NCBI RefSeq assembly: GCF_032118995.1
Contig: NC_092661.1
Coordinates: forward strand, 16,439,006-16,503,005
From: Asterias amurensis
Lineage: Eukaryota > Echinodermata > Asteroidea > Forcipulatida > Asteriidae
Direction: 5' to 3'
DNA: 64,000 bases
Positions within the stretch are counted from its first letter, which is position 1. Every line of letters starts with the position of its first letter. Positions 7,326 through 64,000 of this stretch are shown one piece after another. The position numbers and the translations under genes were made by a program. The notes under the pieces were generated by a model, which made no database searches, was not told where the DNA came from, and worked only from the letters and a program-made list of their open reading frames with translations.

Positions 7326-9690
7326 TTGTAACACTTTATTTATTGGTATTTTCATGTAGGTCGTTGCCGATGAGTTGCGACATGATAGTTCTTGCTGTTT
7401 AGGAGATCTATAAATAACCGAAGCATGTCGATGTTTCTGCGTCAGCGATCCATGCGCATGTTCGTCGTCTTCTGCATCCTGTTTGGCTTCTTCCAGATAA
7501 TCCTTCTCAGCCTCCAAAGAGATCGTAAACCTCTTGGAGAACTTGGAGACGGTGGACCGAAGCTACCGGCCGAGGCTCAGCTTGGCATGATTGAGAAAAG
7601 ACATGTTGGTGGCGGTGGTGGAGATGCGTTGGCTTCGAACCATGTGAAACAATTTCCCCCGTTGGGGAAGTCACTCCAATTTGGGGAGTTACCTCAATTG
7701 GGGGAGTCGCCTCAATTGGGGCAGTCACCTGAATTGGGACATGTACCTCGATTGGGGCAGTCACCTCAGTTGAGGCAACTCCCTCATCTAGTAGGGCAAT
7801 CACCTCTAGAACAGCGTGGCAATCAAAGCAGCGACCACGCAGTGCCTCAAGATGTTCCCGACTCGTACAATACGTTCATATCACCTTATCACCGGCATTG
7901 GAAGGCCGACTGCCCTGCTATATTTTCCGGTGATAAAAAGGCAGTGAGGACAACTTATGAAATGCTTCAAAAGGAGCGCCTTAAGACGAATGGGTCCGTT
8001 GCTGTACCGAGCGATGGTGAGGTACGAACGTGGACGCGCGACTGCTATTCGTACAAACGATTGAGACGTTTCCCAACAAACCCCGGAACGGAAGAGGAGG
8101 CCGGGTTCCAGGTTGCTTACATCATTGTTGCTCACAAAGAAGCCGCGCAGGTCGAGCGCCTCCTACGGGCGATATACCAACCTCAGAACCTTTACTGCAT
8201 TCACCCCGATGCAAAGTCCTCCAGAGAATTCCACGAGGCTATACGCTCCATGACAGGCTGCTTCGACAATGTGTTCATTGCGTCTAAACTTGAAGATGTC
8301 CAGTATGCTGGATACACGAGGCTTCTGGCTGATGTCAACTGCATGAGGGATCTATCGAGAAAGAGAGGTTCAATTTACCGCTGGAGATACGTGATGAATT
8401 TATGCGGGCAAGACTTCCCATTGAAAACGAACCTTGAGATCGTACGACAACTCAAGGCTTACAAGCGTCATAATGACATCACTGGTATTCTACCACCTCC
8501 TTATATAAAAGGACGTACGAAACACCATCACATAACTAAAGACAGGCATGTCATGAGGACGAACAGGTTAAAAGAACCTCCACCGTATAATTTGACCATC
8601 CACTTCGGCAACGCCTACTACGCGGCCACGTGGGCGTTTGTTGACTATATGCTGACCAGTCCACAGGGCGTTGACCTCTTGGAATGGTCAAATGACACAT
8701 TCAGTCCGGACGAGCATTTCTGGGCGACTCTCCAGCGGGGGGCTGGGACACCGGGTGGGTATCCTCACGCAACGTGGGACGAAAACGTGAGGTTCATGAA
8801 ATGGGGTGACATCAAGAAGCACCCAGCCTGCCGCGGTAAATACGTCAGAGCACTGTGCGTGTTTGGAGTCGGGTACCTGGACTACCTCGCAACACAACCT
8901 TACCTCTTTGCTAATAAGTTCTACTACAGTTTCGACCCAGTGGCTATGCAGTGTATCGAGGAAGCGCTGAACAACAGAACTAGGAATCCATTGGAGTCAG
9001 ATAAACTGAGTAATTTCCCGGTCACGAATCTCGTCTGGCAAAATCACACGGTCTAGTACCATGAACCTTTATCGCAACTCTGCACGCGTGTTAGGCTTGG
9101 AATTAGGTGCATGCTGGTGTAACTAGTGAGCCTTGCCCAATTTGAGTTAGGTGACCCGGAAAATGGTTCGATCTTTTTCGGATTCTGTGTCGTGTCGAAC
9201 CTTTTCTGTGTCATTTTGAGACAATTATTGACCACGGGACTCGGTATCCAAATCAATTTGGACCCGGACGTTTTCAGAGTCTTTTGTTCATGTGGGTCTT
9301 AAACTCTGTGCTATAATGTTTTGGAAAGTGAACCATCAGTGCTTTTTATCATTTAAAATGAGACGTTTACGGGTTATGTTTTGTTGTTTACGGGTTATGT
9401 TTTGTTATATTTAAAACAAATGATGTGAACCGATTGTAGATTAGACAACGGTGAGTGCCTTATTGTACATCAGACTACGGTACGTACGGATTATACTAGA
9501 TATCTTATTATCACTATTTACTAACCGTTAGCGCCTTTAATCATTATGCATGAGACTACTGTTATGGAATAGGGGGGTTATTAATATCTTAGAGAAAGGG
9601 CAGTTGGGCGGAACCGTTACTGTGCCTTTAATTTGTACATGAGACTATACGGTTCGTACGGATTATGTATTTGTCCCAAAAGGAGACGTG
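7326..9690 (+). repeat. Arm 1 of inverted segmental duplication
   Basis: Homology to 15000-18167 (inverted) starts at TTGTAACACTTTATT upstream of the gene. It passes through a shared possible splice acceptor (a TGTAG before GTCGTTGCC), the whole coding region and the 3' flank (TTTCAGAGTCTTTTG, then TCATTTAAAATGAGACGTTT). It continues to the GACT...ACGGTTCGTACGGATTA motifs near 9650. This arm lacks the MITE and most of the minisatellite units found in arm 2. Confidence 0.8.
7425..9056 (+). CDS. GCNT-like: Core-2-type beta-1,6-N-acetylglucosaminyltransferase, copy 1
   Basis: This is an intronless 543-residue Golgi type II membrane enzyme of glycosyltransferase family 14. Known members add GlcNAc in beta-1,6 linkage to GalNAc or Gal of mucin O-glycans. 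A short cytoplasmic tail (1-11) precedes one hydrophobic anchor (12-30). The stem (31-150) contains degenerate repeats of the type LGQSPQ at 76-122. The catalytic domain (about 229-505) has AYIIVAHKEA at 231-240, NLCGQDFPLKTN at 325-336 and SPDEHFWATL at 427-436, whose Glu430 aligns with the catalytic Glu of mouse C2GnT-L; LFANKF is at 494-499. N-glycosylation sequons occur at 189, 389, 423, 517 and 540. The start is the first ATG after the in-frame stop at 7386; a second ATG follows two codons later. A 5' noncoding exon is possible because an acceptor-like TGTAG lies near 7360. Compared with copy 2, a one-base loss near the end gives a stop three codons earlier. Acceptor specificity cannot be told. 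Confidence 0.9.
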   Translation: MSMFLRQRSMRMFVVFCILFGFFQIILLSLQRDRKPLGELGDGGPKLPAEAQLGMIEKRHVGGGGGDALASNHVKQFPPLGKSLQFGELPQLGESPQLGQSPELGHVPRLGQSPQLRQLPHLVGQSPLEQRGNQSSDHAVPQDVPDSYNTFISPYHRHWKADCPAIFSGDKKAVRTTYEMLQKERLKTNGSVAVPSDGEVRTWTRDCYSYKRLRRFPTNPGTEEEAGFQVAYIIVAHKEAAQVERLLRAIYQPQNLYCIHPDAKSSREFHEAIRSMTGCFDNVFIASKLEDVQYAGYTRLLADVNCMRDLSRKRGSIYRWRYVMNLCGQDFPLKTNLEIVRQLKAYKRHNDITGILPPPYIKGRTKHHHITKDRHVMRTNRLKEPPPYNLTIHFGNAYYAATWAFVDYMLTSPQGVDLLEWSNDTFSPDEHFWATLQRGAGTPGGYPHATWDENVRFMKWGDIKKHPACRGKYVRALCVFGVGYLDYLATQPYLFANKFYYSFDPVAMQCIEEALNNRTRNPLESDKLSNFPVTNLVWQNHTV

Positions 9691-15041: not shown

Positions 15042-15535
15042 CGTAGTCTCGTGTAAAACGATTAAAGGCACTAATGGTTCCACCTCATTAGTATAAAATA
15101 ATCATCTACTCCATAGGAACCGTATAGTCTCATGAACATGTACATGATTAAAGGCATAATGGTTCCACCTCATTAGTAATAAATAAACCTCTACTCCATA
15201 GGAACCGTAAAGTCTCATGTACATGTACAACGATTAAAGGCACAATGGTTCTCCGCCTCATTAGTAATAAATAAACCCCTATTCCATAGGAACCGTAGTC
15301 ACATGTACAGTGATTAAAGGCACAATGGTTCCAGCTCATTAGTAATAAATAAACCTCTACTCCATAGGAACCGTATAGTATCATGAACATGTACATGATA
15401 AGGCACAATGGTTCCACCTCATTAGTATAAAATAATCCTCTACTCCATAGGAACCGTATAGTCTCATGAACATGTACATGATTAAAGGCACAATGGTTCT
15501 CCGCCTCATATAGTAATAAATAAACCCCTAAAGAT
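15042..15535. repeat. Minisatellite, unit about 80-87 bp, six copies
   Basis: Each unit contains AATGGTTCCACCTCATTAG, CTCCATAGGAACCGTA, TAGTCTCATG and ATTAAAGGCAC. Unit starts fall near 15073, 15158, 15244, 15323, 15408 and 15492. About three weakly conserved units are visible in arm 1 (9440-9680), so the array probably expanded only in arm 2. Confidence 0.8.
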
Positions 15536-15579: not shown

Positions 15580-15690
15580 TTCTCCTGAAGAGGAGCAGAG
15601 TACACTGTTCGAAACGTCGAGACCAAACCGGCTCTTTTCAGAGCCACCACTCCTTCAAAAGAGATTTACCATGGTTGTACCCGCACGTTT
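15580..15690 (+). repeat. Structured-RNA-like repeat segment, copy 1
   Basis: CTGAAGA at 15585 is followed by a six-pair hairpin (GAGCAG, loop AGTACA, CTGTTC) and GAAACGTCGAGACC, then a second hairpin GGCTC-TTTTCA-GAGCC. The same layout recurs at 58639-58740 and 63246-63330. Such CTGA...GAAAC segments occur at the ends of Penelope-like elements, but no reverse transcriptase is present here. Confidence 0.55.
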
Positions 15691-16420: not shown

Positions 16421-18061
16421 TCATGGTACGAGAGCCGTGTGATTTTGCCAGACAAGATTCGTGACCGGGAAATTACTCAGTTTTTCCGACTCTAAAGGGT
16501 TTCTAGTTCTGTTGTTCAGCGCTTCCTCGATACACTGTATTGCCACTGGGTCGAAACTGTAGTGGAACTTATTAGCAAAGAGGTAAGGTTGTGTTGCGAG
16601 GTAGTCCAGGTACCCGACTCCAAACACGCACACTGCTCTGACGTATTTACCGCGGCAGGCTGGGTGCTTCTTGATGTCACCCCATTTCATGAACCTCACG
16701 TTTTCGTCCCACGTTGCGTGAGGATACCCACCCGGTGTCCCAGCCCCCCGCTGGAGGGTCGCCCAGAAATGCTCGTCCGGACTGAATGTGTCATTTGACC
16801 ATTCCAAGAGGTCAACGCCCTGTGGACTGGTCAGCATATAGTCAACAAACGCCCACGTGGCCGCGTAGTAGGCGTTGCCGAAGTGGACGGTAAAGTTATG
16901 CGGTGGAGGTTCTTTTAATCTTGTTGTCATCATGACATGCCTGTATTTAGTTATGTGATGGTGTTTCGTACGTCCTTTTATATAAGGAGGTGGTAGAATA
17001 CCAGTGATGTCATTATGACGCTTGTAAGCCTTGAGTTGTCGTACGATCTCAAGGTTCGTTTTCAACGGGAAGTCTTGCCCGCATAAATTCATCACGTATC
17101 TCCAGCGGTAAATTGAACCTCTCTTTCTCGATAGATCCCTCATGCAGTTGACATCAGCCAGAAGCTTCGTGTATCCAGCATACTGGACATCTTCAAGTTT
17201 AGACGCAATGAACACATTTTCGAAGCAGCCTGTCATGGAGCGTATAGCCTCGTGGAATTCTCTGGAGGACTTTGCATCGGGGTGAATGCAGTAGAGGTTC
17301 TGAGGTTGGTATATCGCCCGTAGGAGGCGCTCGACCTGCGCGGCTTCTTTGTGAGCAACAATGATGTAAGCAACCTGGAACCCGGCCTCCTCTTCCGTTC
17401 CGGGGTTTGTTGGGAAACGTCTCAATCGTTTGTACGAATAGCAGTCGCGCGTCCACGTTCGTACCTCACCATCGCTCGGTACAGCAACGGACCCATTCGT
17501 CTTAAGGCGCTCCTTTTGTAGCATTTCATAAGTTGTCCTCAATGCCTTTTTATCACCGGAAAATATAGCAGGGCAGTCGGCCTTCCAATGCCGGTGATAA
17601 GGTGATATGAACGTATTGTACGAGTCGGGAACATCTTGAGGCACTGCGTGGTCGCTGCTTTGATTGCCACGCTGTTCTAGAGGTGATTGCCCTACTAGAT
17701 GAGGGAGTTGCCTCAACTGAGGTGACTGCCCCAATCGAGGTACATGTCCCAATTCAGGTGACTGCCCCAATTGAGGCGACTCCCCCAATTGAGGTAACTC
17801 CCCAAATTGAAGTGACTTCCCCAACGGGGGAAATTGTTTCACATGGTTCGAAGCCAACGCATCTCCACCACCGCCACCAACATGTCTTTTCTCAATCATG
17901 CCAAGCTGAGCCTCGGCCGGTAGCTTCGGTCCACCGTCTCCAAGTTCTCCAAGAGGTTTACGATCTCTTTGGAGGCTGAGAAGGATTATCTGGAAGAAGC
18001 CAAACAGGATGCAGAAGACGACGAACATGCGCATGGATCGCTGACGCAGAAACATCGACAT
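16421..18061 (-). CDS. GCNT-like: Core-2-type beta-1,6-N-acetylglucosaminyltransferase, copy 2
   Basis: This 546-residue intronless GT14 enzyme is nearly identical to the copy at 7425-9056. It has the same short cytoplasmic tail, a membrane anchor at 12-30, the LGQSPQ-type stem repeats, NLCGQDFPLKTN and SPDEHFWATL. The first 540 or so residues align without gaps. Differences are few: Val/Leu at 174, Asp/Glu at 281, Arg/Lys at 299, a cluster at 373-391 (Asp/Tyr, Arg/Met, Asn/Thr, Tyr/His, Leu/Phe, Ile/Val), and single changes at 477, 500, 508 and 526. The C-terminus ends ALVP instead of V because of a one-base indel. The start is the ATG that matches the one in copy 1. Both frames are intact, so both may be functional; convergent orientation means the two genes point at each other across a 7.4-kb spacer. 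Confidence 0.9.
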   Translation of the reverse strand: MSMFLRQRSMRMFVVFCILFGFFQIILLSLQRDRKPLGELGDGGPKLPAEAQLGMIEKRHVGGGGGDALASNHVKQFPPLGKSLQFGELPQLGESPQLGQSPELGHVPRLGQSPQLRQLPHLVGQSPLEQRGNQSSDHAVPQDVPDSYNTFISPYHRHWKADCPAIFSGDKKALRTTYEMLQKERLKTNGSVAVPSDGEVRTWTRDCYSYKRLRRFPTNPGTEEEAGFQVAYIIVAHKEAAQVERLLRAIYQPQNLYCIHPDAKSSREFHEAIRSMTGCFENVFIASKLEDVQYAGYTKLLADVNCMRDLSRKRGSIYRWRYVMNLCGQDFPLKTNLEIVRQLKAYKRHNDITGILPPPYIKGRTKHHHITKYRHVMMTTRLKEPPPHNFTVHFGNAYYAATWAFVDYMLTSPQGVDLLEWSNDTFSPDEHFWATLQRGAGTPGGYPHATWDENVRFMKWGDIKKHPACRGKYVRAVCVFGVGYLDYLATQPYLFANKFHYSFDPVAIQCIEEALNNRTRNPLESEKLSNFPVTNLVWQNHTALVP

Positions 18062-18197
18062 GCTTCGTTGGGTTTTTGTAGATCTTCTACCAAACAGCAA
18101 GAACTATCATGTCGCAACTCATCGGCAATGACCTACATACAAATACCAAATCAACAATAAAGTGTTACAAGGTGGCACAGTGGGGTGTTTTTTTATA

Positions 18198-30629: not shown

Positions 30630-43438
<12,809 letters not shown>

Positions 43439-52600: not shown

Positions 52601-55600
52601 ATTGGAGTAGTAAATTTAACTTGTTGCCCAGGCCTTTTGTATTGATGTCGTATTCATTTACCATTCTGCTGTTTCAGGAGTATTACACTGTCCATGGTGA
52701 AGATGCAATGTTTGCAGCAAAAGAATGTTTCAAGACACTCGGTGTAGTCAAGTACACAGGATCAGGTAAATATCCTAAGAACTGTTGTAATCCGGGCATA
52801 AATAATAATAATAATAATAATAAAGAACACTTAGTAGAGCGCCGGTATCCGCTTAAAAAAGGCGCTCATGGCGCTTGAGGAGAGAAAGACAAATTAGGAC
52901 TGAAGATTAAGATGAGCCTTAACCCTTTGTGAATTCTCCCTTGAACTTTCTACAGGCACAATTTGTAAACAGCTCAATGGAAGAAAACAATTAAATATTG
53001 TTTTCTTATGGAGATTTCACTGTCTGATTTTAAAAAACCATTGCATTTGATACCCGTCCAGTGCAAAATTTGAAAAAAAATTGACGACATCATTCTGAGA
53101 GAATTGGGTGTGTATAGTTTCTTATGGGGATATTTTGGTCTTTTCATTTACTTAAAGTAATAATCGTTGGATGTTTTGGATGTTGGCATATTTTTGGAAT
53201 GCCATTTTAATTTCTTTGGAAAACACTGCTGAGCATGTTTCTTTGTTCTGAAGCAACCCACAAACCCAACATTGGGAACCAACTGCAACAATGTAAACTG
53301 TATGGCATGTTGGCTGGTACCCTGTTTCTGCTGAGCATGATCTTTTTGTGCTTAGTAAGTTTTTTTGTACTGAAATTATTAATCATGCCTCGGCGACTAC
53401 TGTATGGCATGCTGGCTGGTACCCTGTTTCTACTAAGCATGTGCTTTCTGTGCTTAGTAAGTTTTTTTGTACTGAAATTGTTACTGAAATTGGGCCTAGA
53501 TCATTGTCTGGTTTTGATTGTCTTTTTGTTAGGAGAGAAAAAGGTGCCATATGTCAACCTGAGTAAGATGAACTTTGAAAGCATGGTGCGAGATCTTCTA
53601 CTCGTACGACAGTATCGTGTTGAGATGTATAAGAACATGGCAACGGGGAAAGGCAATGACTGGCAGGTGGCTTACAAGGTAAGAAGGGCTCCCTCCCAGG
53701 GCCAAATTTCATAGAGCTGCTTAAGCAGAAAATATTCCCTAAAAAATTACTGCTTAGCAGAAATGAGCAGGATGCCAGTAACAAATTTATCATAGTATTA
53801 TAGGCTGGTAACCTGATTCTGGTAAGCATCTTACTTTGATGTGCTTATAGCCTTTTTAAGCTTAAGCAGCTCTATGAAATTGGGCTCGGGGCTCAACTTT
53901 TACACTGGACCGCAGACTAGAACTCGAACCCACACTCTACTGATCAGAAACACCAGAGCTTGAGTCCGCTGCTCTTATCCGCTCAGCCAGGACACGACAT
54001 GAACATGTGTTTCTCTGTCATTTTAATAGGTTTCTCCTGGTAACCTTACCCAATTTGAAGAGATCCTCTCCTCATTATTACTATTCTTGCTCAGGGACAA
54101 AATTGCCTAGTCTGGGACTAGAACCCACCCTCCAAGGATCAGAATCACCAGAGTTAGAGTTAGGTGCTTTTATCCAGTCGACCGTCGGCCATGACATTCC
54201 ATTAACATTTCTCTGTCATTTTATAGGCTTCTCCTGGTAACCTCACCCAATTTGAAGAGATCCTCTTCGGTAACAACGACATGTCAACGTCAGCCAGTGT
54301 GATTGCTGTTAAGTACGTTAGCGAGGGCTCAGGGGGGCAGCTGACTGTTGGAGTCGGCTATGCTGACGCTACTCTGAGGGAACTAGCCGTGTGTCAGTTT
54401 ACTGACAATGAGCATTTCTCCAACTTGGAGGTGAGTTTTGCACCCAATTTCAGGCCTGGAATTTCATCTTTCAGAGGGCAAGGCCATTTTCATTTTGCAA
54501 AGGGCACTTCCATTGAGAAATCTTAAAGTCAGTGGGAAACTTTTGAAGGGGCACCAATGCCACGACCAGGGGCAACATGGCCTCTGGCCATGCTTCAAAA
54601 CATTGCTTAAAAATCTTTTCCAGACGTATTTTGCTTACTAGGTTGTTTATTTCATTTTCATTCCTTTATGTTAGTTTGTTGATTGCTTTAATAATTATTG
54701 TTGTAAAGCGTTGTGGTACCTTTTCTGTGTAAGAACGCTACAAATGCTTAGATTATTGTTATTCATTGTTAGTTATAGAATACAAGCTAAATTTGCTCCT
54801 CTTAAAGGGAAGGTACACGTTTGGTAATTACTCAAAACAAATATTAACTTAAAAACTGACTTGGTAACAAGCATTGGAGAGCTGTTGATAGTATAAAACA
54901 TTGTGGGAAACAACTCCCTCTGAAGTATTGTAGTTTTTGAAAAAGAGGTAATTTCTCACTAAAAATAATAAACTTAGACTTCTAGCCAGAAGTCTTTTAT
55001 TTCTGTCTGAAAGCACAAATTTGTGAATTTCATTTTCTCACAACTTTGATGACCAAAATTTGCACAGGCTTGTTATTTATGCTTATGATGAGATTGAGAT
55101 ACACCTAGTGAGGACACGGGTCTTTGACAATTACCAAACATGTACAGTGCCTTTAAGCTGTACCCTAAACACCAAAAATCCAACAAAGAAATGGTTGACT
55201 CTGACTTTTTTAAAAGTAAAATTCTATTGAAAACTCTTTCACGGACACACATTTTTTATTTTGATATAGGCCCTACTGGTGCAGCTGGGTCCAAAAGAGT
55301 GCCTGATACAATCACAGTCAGGCGAGGGCGCTGTGGACTCGGCCAAACTTACAGGCGTGTTAGAACGCAGTGGACTCCTGGTCACTGAGCGAGCGAGGGC
55401 GGACTTTGGCACCAAGGACGTTGAGCAGGATCTGAACCGTCTTCTGAAGGGAGCCAGCGAGGAGCAACGGAATGCTGCCACCCTGGGGGAGATGGAGAAG
55501 ACGACTGCCGTGGGATCGCTGGCTGCGTTGATAAAATATCTTGAGGTGAGACTTGTGGAAGTGTCGTGGCCGAGCAGTTAAGAGCACCAAATTCAAACTG

Positions 55601-58600: not shown

Positions 58601-61600
58601 CTCTAAAAACTAACTCTACCTGGCAGGAGAATGCTGGACTGAAGACGAGCAGAGTATACTGTTTGAAACGTCGAGACCCAACTGGCTCTTTTCAGAGCCA
58701 ACACTCACCCTAAGAGATTTACACATGGTTGTACCCGCAAGTTGTCTATTTATTTATAGTTTCTTCTTAAGTGTGGAGTTCTTTGTTATCAGTTTGCATT
58801 CCTCAATGTATTCCTCCGTAAAGATGATTTTTTGTTTTCATTTTAAAGATTTGTTTATCATGCTTTTAGATGCTGTTTACAATTATCAATATTTTCATAA
58901 GCGTACAAACTGTTGGGAAAACTATTCGCCTTTTAGGACACTCCATGAAATGTTGGGGCATAATGAATGTTAAAGGCACTATGGAGACTATTGGTAATTT
59001 CTCAAAATAATTGTTAGCATAAAAACTTGATTGGTAACAGGCAATGGAGAGCTGTTGATGGTATGAAACATCGTGAGAAACGGCTCCCTCTGAAGTAACG
59101 CAGTTTTCGAGAAAGAAGTAATTTTCAACTAAAATATTTGAATTTGATTTCAAGACCTTATATGTAGATTTTGAGGTCCCGAAGTCAAGCATCTGAAAGC
59201 ACACAACTTCGTGTGACAAGGGTGTTTTTACTTCCATTATTATCTCGCGACTTCAACGACCAATTGAGCTCAAATTTTCACAGGTATGTTATTTTGTGCA
59301 TAATATGTTTCTGATACACTAAGTGAGAAGACTGGTCTTTGACAACTACCTAAGGTGTCCACTGCCTTTAAAGGATTTCAAGTAAATGCAAAAGTGCACA
59401 GCCACAATCGTGGATACACACTTCTTTTCTGTCCCGTGCCTTTAAAGGATTTGGGTACTTTTTAAAAATGTCCATAGATTTACATTAAACTTACAGGGTT
59501 TGAAGATAATGATAGTGCAAAGCTTCCCTTCAAGTATTGCTTACTGAGGTGCTGTAGTTTTTGAGAAATGAGTAAAACAATATCATGAAAATTTGTGATT
59601 AAAATAATTTTCGTCTCATGAGACGAAAATTATTTTCTTGACATTGTTTTACTTATTTCCCAAAAACTACATCACCTCAGCACGTAATATTTTCAGGGAA
59701 GCTTTCTACTATCATTATCTTCAAACTGTGTAAGTTTAGTGTAAATCTGTGGACTGTGTGTTTTTTGTCCTACAAAGGTTACATAGACCCTTTAACTCCG
59801 CCTCCTGACAGCAGTTTTCAATTTTGTGATTCTTGCAGACTTACGGGAGAAGATGGATGGTCTAGAGAATAACATCCAGGCTCAGCTAGGCAAGGCAGCG
59901 AGGGATCTCGGCCTGGAAGCCAACAAGACCATCAAACTAGAGTCCAATAACCAGCTGGGATATTTCTTCCGTGTCACGAGGAAGGTACGTTTGTTTGTTT
60001 GATTGTTTGTTAGTCAGGGGTGTTTGTTTGTTTGTTTTATTTCCATTGGTACAACTACAAAAGTACAAGAATATTGACTACAAGGAAATAAATATAGTTA
60101 TATGAATAAATTTAAAAAAATAGTTAAAGGCCTGACATTTTGACTCTGCTAGGGTCGAAAGGTTAGGCTATTACAGGTAACTATTTTGTGCATTATACCA
60201 TATGTCGTTTGAGTTGGTAGGCAGTTTGCAACAGCTAATTCTATTTCCTCATAACAAAATAAAGTACAAGTGAGGGGTCCTAACTAGAGGAGATAAAACC
60301 CTCCTGTATTGTAGCACCCAAACTACTGTATAAAATGCTGCACTCAGGGACGGATGTAGTTTCTCCGGCTTTTGGCAAATTTCAGGCTTTTTCGACTCAA
60401 AAAGTCAACCAACGTGAATCATGTGAATCCGTTGAGAAAATCGGGGGGTAGATTGTGCTAATTAATTATTCATGTTGAGTTTTGCATGCCGAAATGTAGA
60501 CTTCAAAATTTTTCCGTGGCCCTTAGGCGGGCCCCGGACCCCACACTGTTAGGGGCGAGCTTGCGCTCGCAATGATAGGACTCACATTTCCGGACAATTT
60601 AAATTTTCAGGCTTTTTTTAAGACAAGCAATCCCTGTGCACTAGCGATAAGTGCAATCTGAAAGTAGGTTATAGTAACCCTAAATAAAGCACATCTTAAT
60701 AGAAACATTTTTTAAAAGAAGCAAATCTTTTTTAATATTTTCAAAATAGGAAGAAAAAGTTTTACGAAACAACAAGAAGTATGCCACTATCGACACCAAC
60801 AAAAATGGAGTCCGTTTCACGCAATCTACGATGCGTAGTCTGAACGAAGAACACATGTCAGCCAAGGAAGAGTATAATGAAATGCAAAAAGCCATCGTTG
60901 CCGAGATCATTGGTATTGCAGGTGAGTTTGACTTTCATTTCTTGATTTGGGGTTGAACAACGAAAAATTTACTGGAGTGGGATTTGAACCAGCGACCTTC
61001 GGATTAATGTGCCGGCGTTCTACCAACTGAGCTATCAAGCCTTACATGTATGTCTCCTTTTTTTTGTAAAACCACTCAATTATTAACTGTCCTGTAGCCA
61101 GGGATAACACAACACAACCTGGGAAGCGGCAGCCAGAGAATTACCTTAAGGGGATGCGACTTTGTATAACTTGCAATAACTGTTGATGGTCTGGGTCTAA
61201 TTACATGGTGTAAACAAATGTCAAGCTTAACATCATTTACTTTACCCCAAAAGTTAGAATTTCACCAAGATGTTTGTGTTTTGTCTTGTTTTTCATACAG
61301 CTGGTTATGTTGATCGCATGATGCTGTTGAGTGATATCATTGCACAGTTGGACGTACTTGTAAGGTAAATTATCCCAACCTGTCGATAGACCTTATGCGA
61401 AGGATGTTATAAGCACTCCGCACTAATGCAAAAAAAAAAAGGAGCTTATAATTAATTATATCGGAATCTCAAACTAATTTTCACTTACATACGCTCGCGT
61501 GGGTGTCCAAGTTTTATGTTTACTGTCTATGTACTGACCATACTACTACTTCTACTACAAACAATGCCATATTGTGCGTTGATGATAGTGATCGCTATAT

Positions 61601-63219
61601 AGTGGAATGTTTGACGGAAGTTGCAATTGGGCCTTCAAATTTGGATGTGTAAGGCCCGGTTCATACTTCTCGCGAATGCGAATGCGTTACGAATTTTGAC
61701 ATCAAAAGGCTGTTTTCACAGCAAATTTTTCACAGGATTTGAGCACAAGTCAACTGGCGGGAATTATTTGTTGCAATTTTTCGACATCAAAGTTTGTATC
61801 GCAGGAAGTATGAACGGGTCTTTAAACATCCTGTCTTTTTTTTTTTTCTTCTTGTCATTTTAGCTTTGCACATGTATCCTCCAATGCCCCTATCTCCTAC
61901 GTCCGCCCTACACTGTCAGAGAAGGGACAGGGTGGAATCAACATTAAACATCCTGTCTTGTTTTTTTTTCTTGTCATTTTAGCTTTGCACATGTATCCTC
62001 CAATGCCCCTATCTCCTACGTCCGCCCTACACTGTCAGAGAAGGGGCAGGGTGGAATCAACATTAAACATCCTGTCTTGTTTTTCTTCTCTGTCATTTTA
62101 GCATCGCACATGTATCCTCCAATGGATACATTCGCACATGTATCCTCCAATGCCCCTATCTCTTACGTCCGCCCTACACTGTCAGAGAAGGGACAGGGTG
62201 GAATCAACATTAAACATCCTGTCTTGTTTTTCTTTTTGTCATTTTAGCTTTGCACATGTATCCTCCAATGCCCCTATCTCCTACGTCCGCCCTACACTGT
62301 CAGAGAAGGGACAGGGTGGAATCAACATTAAACATTCTGACTTGTTTTTCTTCTTGTCATTTTAGCTTTGCACATGTATCCTCTAATGCCCCTATCTCCT
62401 ACGTCCGCCCTACACTGTCAGAGAAGGGACAGGGTGGAATCAAGCTGGTCGAGGCAAGGCACCCATGTCTGGAAGTACAGGACGATGTCGCCTTCATTCC
62501 AAACGGCGTGACTTTTGAGAGGGAAAAACAAATGTTTTATATCATCACTGGACCGAATATGGGCGGAAAATCTACTTTCATAAGACAGGTAACACTTTCA
62601 AGATTAAGTATTTGTTTAAAGACACTGGACACTATTGGTATTTACTCAAAGTATTTGTAAGCACAAAAAAAAAGCATTTGTAACCGTTTGTTATAAAATG
62701 GTTGGAAAGATAATTTAAAAGTAGATAGCAATGATCCACACACATTTGTCTCGAAATTGCGTGGTTTTCCTTTTACTTACGTGATCAGCCATTTATGGGA
62801 GTCAAAAATTTGACTCCCATAAATGGCGCAATTTCGAGTGATACTTGTGTGGATCATTATACTCTACTTTTAAAATATCTTTCTAATCATATGCATTTTA
62901 TAACAAACGGTTACAAGCGCTTTTCAAAGACCAACTCGGCCGATCCAAGGCAACGTGTTTCTTAAGTAGTAGTAGTAGTAGTAGTTTCAAAGTAGTTTTT
63001 TAACAGCTTCTCAAAATTGGGCTTCGACCTCATGATTTTTGTTTCCTGCAGATCGGTGTTGTTGTCCTGATGGCTCAGCTTGGTTGCTTCGTCCCGTGTC
63101 GATCGGCCGAGATCTCCATCGTAGATTCCATTCTAGCTAGAGTAGGAGCAGGAGACAGTCAACTTAAAGGTGTTTCCACCTTCATGTCTGAGATGCTGGA
63201 GACCGCATCCATTCTCCGG
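49670..63219 (+). CDS. MSH2: DNA mismatch repair protein MSH2, exons 1-15 (3' end beyond window)
   Basis: MSH2 pairs with MSH6 or MSH3 to recognise mismatches and insertion loops in the nucleus. Coding exons: 49670-49750, 51002-51037, 52678-52765, 53533-53678, 54227-54430, 55270-55545, 56027-56147, 56893-57006, 57524-57768, 58231-58345, 59839-59984, 60750-60921, 61301-61364, 62366-62588, 63052-63219. All have GT-AG borders and phases join, giving 733 codons. The mismatch-binding domain includes [20 protein letters not shown] and [20 protein letters not shown]. The connector includes KADF-like [10 protein letters not shown] and QDLNRLLKG. The lever/clamp includes [20 protein letters not shown] and [12 protein letters not shown]. 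Walker A is [10 protein letters not shown] at about 664-673, followed by [21 protein letters not shown] and LETASILR. Walker B, the signature loop and the C-terminal dimerisation part must lie beyond 64000. Exon 1 starts at the only upstream ATG in frame ([20 protein letters not shown]), matching vertebrate N-termini in length. Oddities are a 36-nt exon 2 and duplicated exon starts before exons 5 and 14. Confidence 0.96.
49966..50140. mobile_element. MITE in MSH2 intron 1
   Basis: TTAACTATGGGATAACTTTT followed by CACGCCACCACTTTTTCACT is mirrored by AAAAAGTGGTGGCGTG and CTTTTCCATAAAGTTAAC. The length is about 175 bp. Confidence 0.8.
50522..50804. mobile_element. CAGGGG-ended MITE with 5-bp target duplication (MSH2 intron 1)
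   Basis: The ends are CAGGGGTCGAAATTAAG and CAATTTCGACCCCTG, flanked on both sides by CTGTA (50517-50521 and 50805-50809). The interior has repeated GGTAGCCC/GGGCTA motifs. Terminus and duplication length match the larger element at 3331-5026, suggesting one superfamily. Confidence 0.85.
51105..51190. repeat. Fragment of the GGCACCAAGGCAATG-type interspersed repeat
   Basis: GCAATTGCCTCCATGCCCCT, ATTGCCTTTGTGCCCCT and GTCCTTTACAAAGG-type blocks correspond, inverted, to 28885-28985. MSH2 intron 2. Confidence 0.55.
51482..51857. mobile_element. TTAA-family A MITE (MSH2 intron 2)
   Basis: It runs from TTAAAGGCAGTGGACATT to AGTGTCCACTGTCTTTAA. The centre is TTTCGAGACCTCAAGTTTGG facing TTTGAGGTCTCGAAATC. 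Confidence 0.9.
51885..51965 (-). mobile_element. tRNA-derived SINE head (MSH2 intron 2)
   Basis: The minus strand shows TACCCTTAGGTGGTAGAGTG (A-box-like) and GGTCATTGGTTCCAACCCC (B-box-like). It is the same SINE type as 60955-61045. Confidence 0.65.
52800..52825. repeat. (AAT)n microsatellite and element tail (MSH2 intron 3)
   Basis: AATAATAATAATAATAAT precedes GAACACTTAGTAGAGCGCCG, a typical reversed SINE/LINE tail junction. Confidence 0.8.
53301..53504. repeat. 102-bp tandem duplication (MSH2 intron 3)
   Basis: TATGGCATGYTGGCTGGTAC through TTTTTTTGTACTGAAATT occurs twice. The copies are joined by TTAATCATGCCTCGGCGACT, which also occurs at 52320. The units carry GCTTAGTAAG/AGCATG motifs related to the GGGCCCAATT-type MITE arms. 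Confidence 0.8.
53699..53887. mobile_element. GGGCCAAATTTCATAG-type MITE (MSH2 intron 4)
   Basis: The ends GGGCCAAATTTCATAGAGCT and AGCTCTATGAAATTGGGC, with CTTAGCAGAAATGAG and GGTAAGCATCTT inside, make it a shorter family member. It starts 20 bp after the exon 4 donor. Confidence 0.8.
53911..54075 (+). repeat. Tandem-duplicated segment carrying a decoy MSH2 exon 5 start
   Basis: This is the upstream copy of a 197-bp-offset duplication. It contains a tRNA-like SINE head (minus strand GGCTGAGCGGATAAGAGC with B-box GTGGGTTCGAGTTC), a pyrimidine tract, an acceptor ending AATAG at 54029, and about 39 bp matching exon 5 with two differences (TCTCCTGGTAACCTTACCC). The frame continues to a stop near 54110, so use of this acceptor would truncate the protein. 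The matching genuine segment is about 54108-54265. Confidence 0.85.
54440..54770. repeat. Interspersed element and LINE-like tail (MSH2 intron 5)
   Basis: GGCCTGGAATTTCATCTTTC, AGGGCACTTCCATTG and GGGGCACCAATGCCACGACC are the element whose inner module is expanded at 45360-45783. A LINE/SINE-like tail (GTTGTAAAGCGTTGTGGTAC, AACGCTACAAATGC, ATTATTGTTATT) follows. Confidence 0.65.
54802..55156. mobile_element. TTAA-family B MITE (MSH2 intron 5)
   Basis: A complete copy running from TTAAAGGGAAGGTACACG to CATGTACAGTGCCTTTAA. The centre is AGACTTCTAGCCAGAAGTCT. It ends 113 bp before exon 6. Confidence 0.88.
55563..55860 (+). mobile_element. tRNA-derived SINE, long form (MSH2 intron 6)
   Basis: The head GTCGTGGCCGAGCAGTTAAG and TGACACTTGTGTCCTTAGCA leads to the body AACCCAGTGCACTTATC, TTCCTGGCTGGATTGGCAGC and CACAGCACCTTGTAAA. 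The body is shared with 57955-58140. The B-box is degraded (TTTTGAATTCCCAG). Confidence 0.75.
56233..56323. repeat. Snapback of 91 bp (MSH2 intron 7)
   Basis: GTGCACGTCTATTCCCCCGA and GGG face the inverted CCCGAGGGGGAATAGACGTG, then CAC. It includes GAGTGAC/GTCACTC. Probably a short foldback element. Confidence 0.85.
56600..56770. repeat. SINE 3' tail (MSH2 intron 7)
   Basis: GCCGTAGCACACTTATAAGG, TAGCGCCTTGAGTACCTTGT and ATTATTATTAATAG match, in the opposite orientation, the tail at 57769-57940. Confidence 0.7.
57769..58190 (-). mobile_element. SINE abutting the MSH2 exon 9 donor
   Basis: Its (ATT)n tail, read on the plus strand as GTAATAATAATAATAAT, begins at the first intron base and supplies the donor sequence itself. 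The body on the minus strand holds GGTAGATACGTGCGCTATAT, CTTATAAGGTGCTACA and GCTGCCAATCCAGCCAGGAA. Confidence 0.75.
58620..58745 (+). repeat. Structured-RNA-like repeat segment, copy 2 (MSH2 intron 10)
   Basis: CTGAAGA at 58639, hairpin GAGCAG-AGTATA-CTGTTT, GAAACGTCGAGACC, hairpin GGCTC-TTTTCA-GAGCC, and then AAGAGATTTACACATGGTTG. It aligns with 15580-15690 over about 100 bp. Confidence 0.6.
58970..59371. mobile_element. TTAA-family A MITE (MSH2 intron 10)
   Basis: It runs from TTAAAGGCACTATGGAGAC to AAGGTGTCCACTGCCTTTAA. The centre carries TTTCAAGACCTTATATG facing TTTTGAGGTCCCGAAGTC. Confidence 0.85.
59442..59795. mobile_element. TTAA-family E MITE (MSH2 intron 10)
   Basis: It runs from TTAAAGGATTTGGGTACTTT to GTTACATAGACCCTTTAA. 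The central palindrome is ATAATTTTCGTCTCATGAGA, then CGAAAATTAT. It ends 44 bp before exon 11. Confidence 0.9.
60955..61045 (-). mobile_element. tRNA-derived SINE with intact A and B boxes (MSH2 intron 12)
   Basis: The minus strand shows GATAGCTCAGTTGGTAGAAC and CGCTGGTTCAAATCCCACTC. The anticodon arm and acceptor pairing are wrong for a functional tRNA, so it is read as a SINE head. The flank GTAAATTTTTCGTTGTTCAA is shared with 51885-51965. Confidence 0.75.
61651..61823. mobile_element. GCCCGGTTCATACTTC-type MITE (MSH2 intron 13)
   Basis: The ends are AAGGCCCGGTTCATACTTCT and CAGGAAGTATGAACGGGTCT, then TTA. It matches 696-836 at the arms with a different interior. Its right end touches the first unit of the exon 14 array. 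Confidence 0.8.
61822..62443 (+). repeat. Tandem array of five MSH2 exon 14 starts with 3' splice sites
   Basis: Five units of 118-119 bp (the third is 146 bp owing to a 27-bp inner duplication) each carry TTAAACATCCTGTCTTG, a T-rich tract, the acceptor CATTTTAG and about 77 bases of exon 14 (CTTTGCACATGTATCCTCC ... GGTGGAATCAA). First exon-like bases are at 61864, 61983, 62102, 62248 and 62366. Only the fifth continues into AGCTGGTCGAGGCAAGGC and the rest of the exon. Units differ by T-run length and a few substitutions (ATCGCA in unit 3, CCTCTAATG in unit 5), so they are real copies, not repeats of one read. Confidence 0.95.
62617..62966. mobile_element. Chimeric TTAA MITE: family A left end, family C body (MSH2 intron 14)
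   Basis: The left 45 bp read TTTAAAGACACTGGACACTA and TGGTATTTACTCAAAG (family A). From 62675 the body is family C (GCATTTGTAACCGTTTG), with the central palindrome CCATTTATGGGAGTC and its partner, and a family C right end GGCAACGTGTTTCTTAA. The family C left terminus is missing. Confidence 0.8.

Positions 63220-63586: not shown

Positions 63587-64000
<414 letters not shown>

Follow-up and report, generated by a model that had tools for sequence, protein, structure and literature searches.

A tandem array of five splice acceptors precedes an ATPase exon of the MSH2 gene in the sea star Asterias amurensis, and only the fifth acceptor leads directly into the complete exon. The gene lies in a stretch of 64,000 nucleotides, hereafter the window (NCBI RefSeq assembly GCF_032118995.1, contig NC_092661.1, positions 16,439,006 to 16,503,005 of the forward strand), the coordinates of which are used below unless another contig is named. 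The array is probably an intron-exon boundary that was duplicated in tandem in the manner of a minisatellite, a structure of the type called a “mirage” in lancelets, and one that is mostly ignored in splicing and is close to neutral. Neutrality is favored because arrays of this kind are already known, recur in unrelated genes of the same genome and arise in a background in which the flanks of exons duplicate at least as often as their edges.

The acceptor array of MSH2

The array occupies 61822-62443 in the intron 61365-62365 and the beginning of the following exon. Each unit opens with TTAAACAT and comprises a pyrimidine tract, the acceptor CATTTTAG, which is present in 5/5 units, and the 78 bases with which the exon begins. 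A preliminary description of this DNA had recognized the same organization, with about 77 coding bases per unit, and the five exon starts and the phase-2 end of the upstream exon that it reported agree with those listed here.

61301-61364, + strand: upstream MSH2 exon, ending in AG before the donor GTAAAT, phase 2
61822-61943, + strand: unit 1, decoy, 122 bp; T12 run, acceptor end 61863, exon start 61864, CTGTC at the branch-site position
61944-62062, + strand: unit 2, decoy, 119 bp; T9 run, acceptor end 61982, exon start 61983, CTGTC
62063-62209, + strand: unit 3, decoy, 147 bp; acceptor end 62101, exon start 62102, 28-base insertion, CTGTC
62210-62327, + strand: unit 4, decoy, 118 bp; acceptor end 62247, exon start 62248, CTGTC
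62328-62443, + strand: unit 5, authentic boundary, alone continuing into the ATPase exon; acceptor end 62365, exon start 62366, CTGAC
62337-62341, + strand: CTGAC branch-site candidate; the putative branch A is at 62340 and precedes the final base of the intron by 25 bases
62366-62588, + strand: authentic MSH2 exon (SFAHVSSN...), 223 nt, with Walker A and the donor GTAACA

The units are 91.5-98.3% identical in pairwise comparison (ungapped columns), and the tandem-repeat scores of the array (528-970) are far above chance. A search of the 491-Mb genome (23 sequences) with the unit, at the sensitivity of the search tool, gave six matches, all inside the MSH2 array, so that copies of the unit elsewhere in the genome were rejected. 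Three substitutions separate unit 5 from units 1-4, on which those four agree: CATCC instead of CATTC, CTGTC instead of CTGAC and, in the exon part, TCC instead of TCT. Unit 3 differs further by the 28-base insertion, which lies in its exon part, and by the exon start CATCGC. Coding constraint on the decoys was considered and set aside: the exon part has three simple substitutions, all of them synonymous transitions (chance 4%), a number too small for the purpose, and this count omits the changes around the insertion of unit 3.

The gene that carries the array looks like an intact, functional MSH2 as judged from its sequence. Thirteen + strand exons, located between 52678 and 63219, together form an open frame of 694 residues with no broken exon; 12 donor combinations left the frame open, and the most MSH2-like one was taken. 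Human MSH2 aligns with the full length of the joined protein (E 7e-284), and the exons encoding Walker B and the C-terminus were found downstream, outside the window, so that similarity over the length of the protein and both Walker motifs are present. The first MSH2 exon or exons were not located. Among the 13 exons placed in the window, the one at 62366-62588, labeled exon 14 in the preliminary description, is the twelfth. A perfect (ATT)72 run lies at 63587-63802, in the second MSH2 intron after the one that carries the array.

Reading frames, donors and the branch site

From the phase-2 donor at 61364, splicing into acceptors 1-4 would meet a stop after 79, 88, 37 and 39 codons, respectively. 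As had been proposed in the preliminary description, the stops after acceptors 1, 2 and 4 are formed by the TAG of a later acceptor, namely acceptor 3 (62099-62101), acceptor 4 (62245-62247) and acceptor 5 (62363-62365), whereas acceptor 3 reaches a TAA at 62211-62213. None of the acceptor spacings (119, 119, 146 and 118) is divisible by three, and the exons beginning at decoy acceptors would be 341-725 nt long vs. 223 nt for the authentic exon. The further claim that no donor restores the frame also holds: by a generic donor matrix that gives the 13 inferred MSH2 donors scores of 1.5-8.3, every GT between 61821 and 62588 has a score of zero or less.

The branch site provides a candidate reason for the tolerance of the decoys that is specific and would be cheap to test. 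The sequence CTGAC fits the animal branch motif, and no AG occurs between the candidate in unit 5 and the acceptor end at 62365. On a branch matrix that is likewise generic and is not fitted to sea stars, the best score is 5.83 in unit 5 and 2.02, 2.76, 2.76 and 2.76 in units 1-4; the value of 5.83 is the maximum of the set and is tied with the CTGAC of another intron, in which an AG stands between motif and acceptor. The pyrimidine tracts of the decoys, by comparison, are as good as the authentic one (17-18 of 20 positions). The preliminary description had argued that the spliceosome must skip four near-perfect acceptors. The AG and the tracts are indeed kept in all four, but unit 3 is interrupted by its insertion and copies 1-4 are without CTGAC, and the argument overlooked the branch site, a strong candidate for which lies downstream of every decoy. 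During splicing, an acceptor is selected 3′ of the branch point, and the first AG is usually taken. Because the strong candidate branch A lies 3′ of the decoys and no AG intervenes before 62365, copy 5 is most likely the one that is used.

In the model that we consider most likely, the branch-site A of an early duplicate of the boundary was lost (CTGAC to CTGTC), and this duplicate was then amplified to four copies by slippage or unequal exchange. With the sole strong branch candidate, at 62340, lying 3′ of every decoy, the first AG met from it would be the authentic one at 62365, which would also yield the shortest exon (223 nt), and copies 1-4 would remain in the intron. Any residual mis-splicing would be at most low-level and would be removed by nonsense-mediated decay.

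Several observations weigh against this account. Four of the 13 authentic MSH2 acceptors (58230, 59838, 60749 and 61300) have an AG-free branch score below 2.76; therefore, a low branch score is no proof of a dead site. The chance that one of the three fixed differences strikes the branch A is 2.5%, and the chance that one strikes any of the four essential bases is 10%, both being post hoc calculations. The direction of change given above, from CTGAC to CTGTC, is one that we infer, as we do the exclusive use of copy 5. Moreover, branch loss cannot be a general explanation for decoys that are passed over, since the decoy donors in the RSK and kinesin arrays described below are intact.

Mirages at other exon boundaries

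A second, smaller mirage was found in the same gene, at the exon that starts at 54227.

53983-54069, + strand: second mirage, a single decoy copying the acceptor and about the first 40 exon bases; decoy acceptor end 54029
54185-54430, + strand: authentic counterpart of this decoy; acceptor end 54226, exon from 54227

The match extends over 87 columns that are 85% alike, and the decoy acceptor lies 197 bases before the authentic one (exon edges were compared with their surroundings). Splicing into the decoy at 54029 would run into a stop. Among AG-free candidates, and on the generic matrix, the branch motif of the decoy (TGAAC) scores 1.68 vs. 4.71 for the authentic TTAAC. This altered motif is consistent with branch loss but lends it weak support, because at 15% divergence a change in the branch motif is not rare.

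Edge-spanning tandem copies were then sought at 78 loci, comprising 8 MutS-family matches and 70 of 136 kinase matches (30 as returned by the search and 40 hand-picked for short matches), and at the 13 MSH2 exons; one MutS-family match (L005) is the MSH2 exon at 63052 and is counted in both sets. The ends of profile matches served as proxies for exon ends. Such copies were present at 2/78 loci, both on the donor side, and at 2/13 MSH2 exons. A further case, in a kinesin gene, was noticed on visual inspection of a table listing 129 matches and enters no rate.

L069, 1644-2467 (C14:20196162-20199344): RSK-type kinase exon, best match ribosomal protein S6 kinase alpha-3
L053, 1001-1586 (C18:4340268-4343501), minus strand: CDK11 exon; 120-bp unit of the exon 3′ end, about five copies
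L088, 379-786 (C10:21445500-21446700): KIF7-like kinesin exon; 152-bp tandem unit with three identical donors

At the end of the RSK exon, a 41-bp unit composed of 34 exon bases and GTAAGTG is repeated about 20 times, giving 20 donor-like matches. Of the later donors, numbers 2-6 of the 19 listed were read out, and all five would meet a stop if used. In CDK11, the second copy keeps a donor, which is GTAAGA vs. GTACGA in the authentic copy.

Preference of duplication for exon edges was examined and rejected, as edges show no excess over the flanking windows. At the 40 hand-picked kinase loci, duplication straddles 2/80 match edges vs. 54/560 flanking windows (Fisher p 0.033); when the two mirage loci, which contribute 9 of the 54 windows, are removed, the control becomes 45/532 windows in 16/38 loci (Fisher p 0.07), and in both comparisons windows within one locus are not independent. 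We claim no more than that duplication is not in excess at exon edges, given the high local background of tandem duplication. Ordinary local duplication therefore suffices, and a special mechanism acting at splice sites is unneeded.

Alternative explanations

The preliminary description had offered three outcomes for the array, namely neutrality, a regulated poison device and a source of variable repair capacity, of which neutrality is the best supported. A regulated device, in which conditional use of the decoys would produce truncated, decay-prone MSH2 transcripts and lower mismatch repair, could draw on the intact AG and the 17-18/20 pyrimidine tract of 4/4 decoys, all of which lead to premature stops, and on weak branch alternatives such as TCAAC located 40-41 bases upstream in units 2-4. 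It is nevertheless improbable. A poison exon is a cassette with its own acceptor and donor, and the array offers neither a donor-like GT, on the generic matrix, nor an in-frame form; in addition, the branch motif is altered in 4/4 decoys, and a like anatomy is seen at unrelated genes, and in lancelets with splicing reported to be undisturbed. Somewhat less improbable, although still unlikely, is an unregulated, leaky burden, in which use of the decoys would lower MSH2 output and copy-number variation would cause differences between individuals. The AGs and tracts of the decoys are intact, some authentic MSH2 acceptors score as low as the decoys for the branch site, and variation in unit number between individuals is plausible by analogy with the lancelet globin BflGb6, of which two haplotypes carry 6 and 3 units. 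Conversely, the branch motif of the decoys is changed relative to the neighboring authentic copy, and the exons they would define are longer.

It is quite improbable that a single true copy was multiplied by mis-assembly or by the joining of haplotypes. Tandem arrays are error-prone, and one lancelet mirage was mis-assembled in a draft; the present copies, however, carry private changes, including the 28-base insertion, both flanks of the array are single within the window, its 622 bp are short relative to long reads, and similar arrays occur at other loci of the genome. Least probable of all is that the array is an incipient intron or exon, the decoy units of which would later be put to use as new exons or introns. 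This model has been proposed for lancelet globins (PMC3087553), but intron gain would require a new donor-acceptor pair that keeps the frame, and at present the units have no usable donor and the frames from acceptors 1-4 are closed. A mostly ignored, nearly neutral duplication of the boundary thus remains the reading that we prefer for the MSH2 array.

Other features of the window and the genome

A miniature inverted-repeat transposable element (MITE)-like sequence abuts the array, and a related one lies farther upstream.

61651-61821, no strand assigned: MITE-like element bounded by imperfect terminal inverted repeats (AAGGCCCGGTTCATACTTC / GAAGTATGAACGGGTCTT); its end lies no more than one base from where unit 1 starts
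about 697-838: related MITE-like element with terminal inverted repeats

Duplication driven by the adjacent element was considered and rejected: the element abuts unit 1, but no target-site duplication is discernible.

Elsewhere in the window, two long open frames form an inverted pair, at 7389-9056 (+) and 16421-18103 (-), which is 97.4% identical over 543 residues; both encode a core-2/I-branching (PF02485) glycosyltransferase. A match to the histone 3′ stem-loop at 15625-15669 scores 34.3 bits against a cut-off of 34, near an 85-bp tandem array at 15060-15530, and a 68-bp satellite-like unit is repeated 27 times, with a 95% match, over 41054-42917. The mitochondrial sequence, the last of the 23 sequences of the genome (16,427 bp, of which 10,000 bases were read with NCBI code 9), contains COX1, ND4L, COX2, ATP6, COX3, ND3 and ND4, with ND1 and ND2 on the opposite strand, an order that we take to be the echinoderm order in its sea-star arrangement. 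A lancelet source of this DNA was rejected on these grounds, the code and the position of ND4L between COX1 and COX2.

Comparison with known systems

Mirages provide natural experiments on splice-site choice where several acceptors, or several donors, are almost identical. The arrays on the acceptor side offer an idea that can be tested at one base, the loss of the branch site, and the RSK array, with its approximately 20 donors, poses the donor counterpart. They are also a trap for annotation, as MSH2 could be truncated by a naive prediction of its exons. The MSH2 array is no obvious device, and of greater interest than the difference in its branch motif is that mirages recur in this genome. 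It is tempting to speculate, although we hold the idea to be doubtful, that the loss of a branch site acts as a license, so that a duplicated acceptor persists and multiplies only after its branch site has died. If so, sea-star genomes may hold many mirages in core genes, as MSH2 does twice, and the gain or loss of decoy units or of a single branch base could shift mismatch-repair output between individuals.

Tandem repetition of splice sites is also found in the human gene IFI6 (6-16), which has a donor-site minisatellite made of 12-bp donor units. The IFI6 array resembles the RSK array, with splice-site sequence in tandem at an exon end, whereas the MSH2 array lies on the acceptor side and has units of 118-147 bp. 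In human genes of segmental duplications, minisatellites at exon-intron borders can alter gene structure (PMC2812944). These repeats share with the MSH2 array their tandem arrangement at exon-intron borders; they differ in that their units average 30 bp, they belong to recent paralogues and some form novel introns, whereas the MSH2 copies are without a usable donor. Intron gain by tandem duplication of a proto-splice site, as cited in PMC3087553, similarly begins with a tandem duplication over a splice site, but it needs a new donor-acceptor pair, and none is seen in the MSH2 array.

The closest counterparts are the mirages of lancelets, from which all the published structures of that name that we found in the open-access literature searched come. 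In Adh3, the globins BflGb6 and BflGb9, troponin C and PGBD5, boundary minisatellites keep the splice signals in many units. In the BflGb6 array, edge units escape homogenization and splicing is reported to be undisturbed (PMC3087553). The MSH2 array has the same layout as that of BflGb6, and as in lancelets its tandem units span an intron-exon boundary and its edge unit is set apart. The splice dinucleotides are kept in 5/5 units, and the inner units are homogenized relative to the edge unit at three positions, which is a small sample. By these features of its sequence, the array is structurally a mirage. It differs from those of lancelets in occurring in a sea star and in MSH2, and in that its decoys share a change in the branch motif; the term “branch point” does not appear in PMC3087553. 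No report of an echinoderm mirage was present among the matches listed in the open-access literature searched. The mirage is thus a known type, and its occurrence in echinoderms, for which we found no earlier report in that literature, is apparently new. Together, the five boundaries in four genes described here (MSH2 twice, RSK, CDK11 and the KIF7-like kinesin) suggest that mirages are a wider animal phenomenon.

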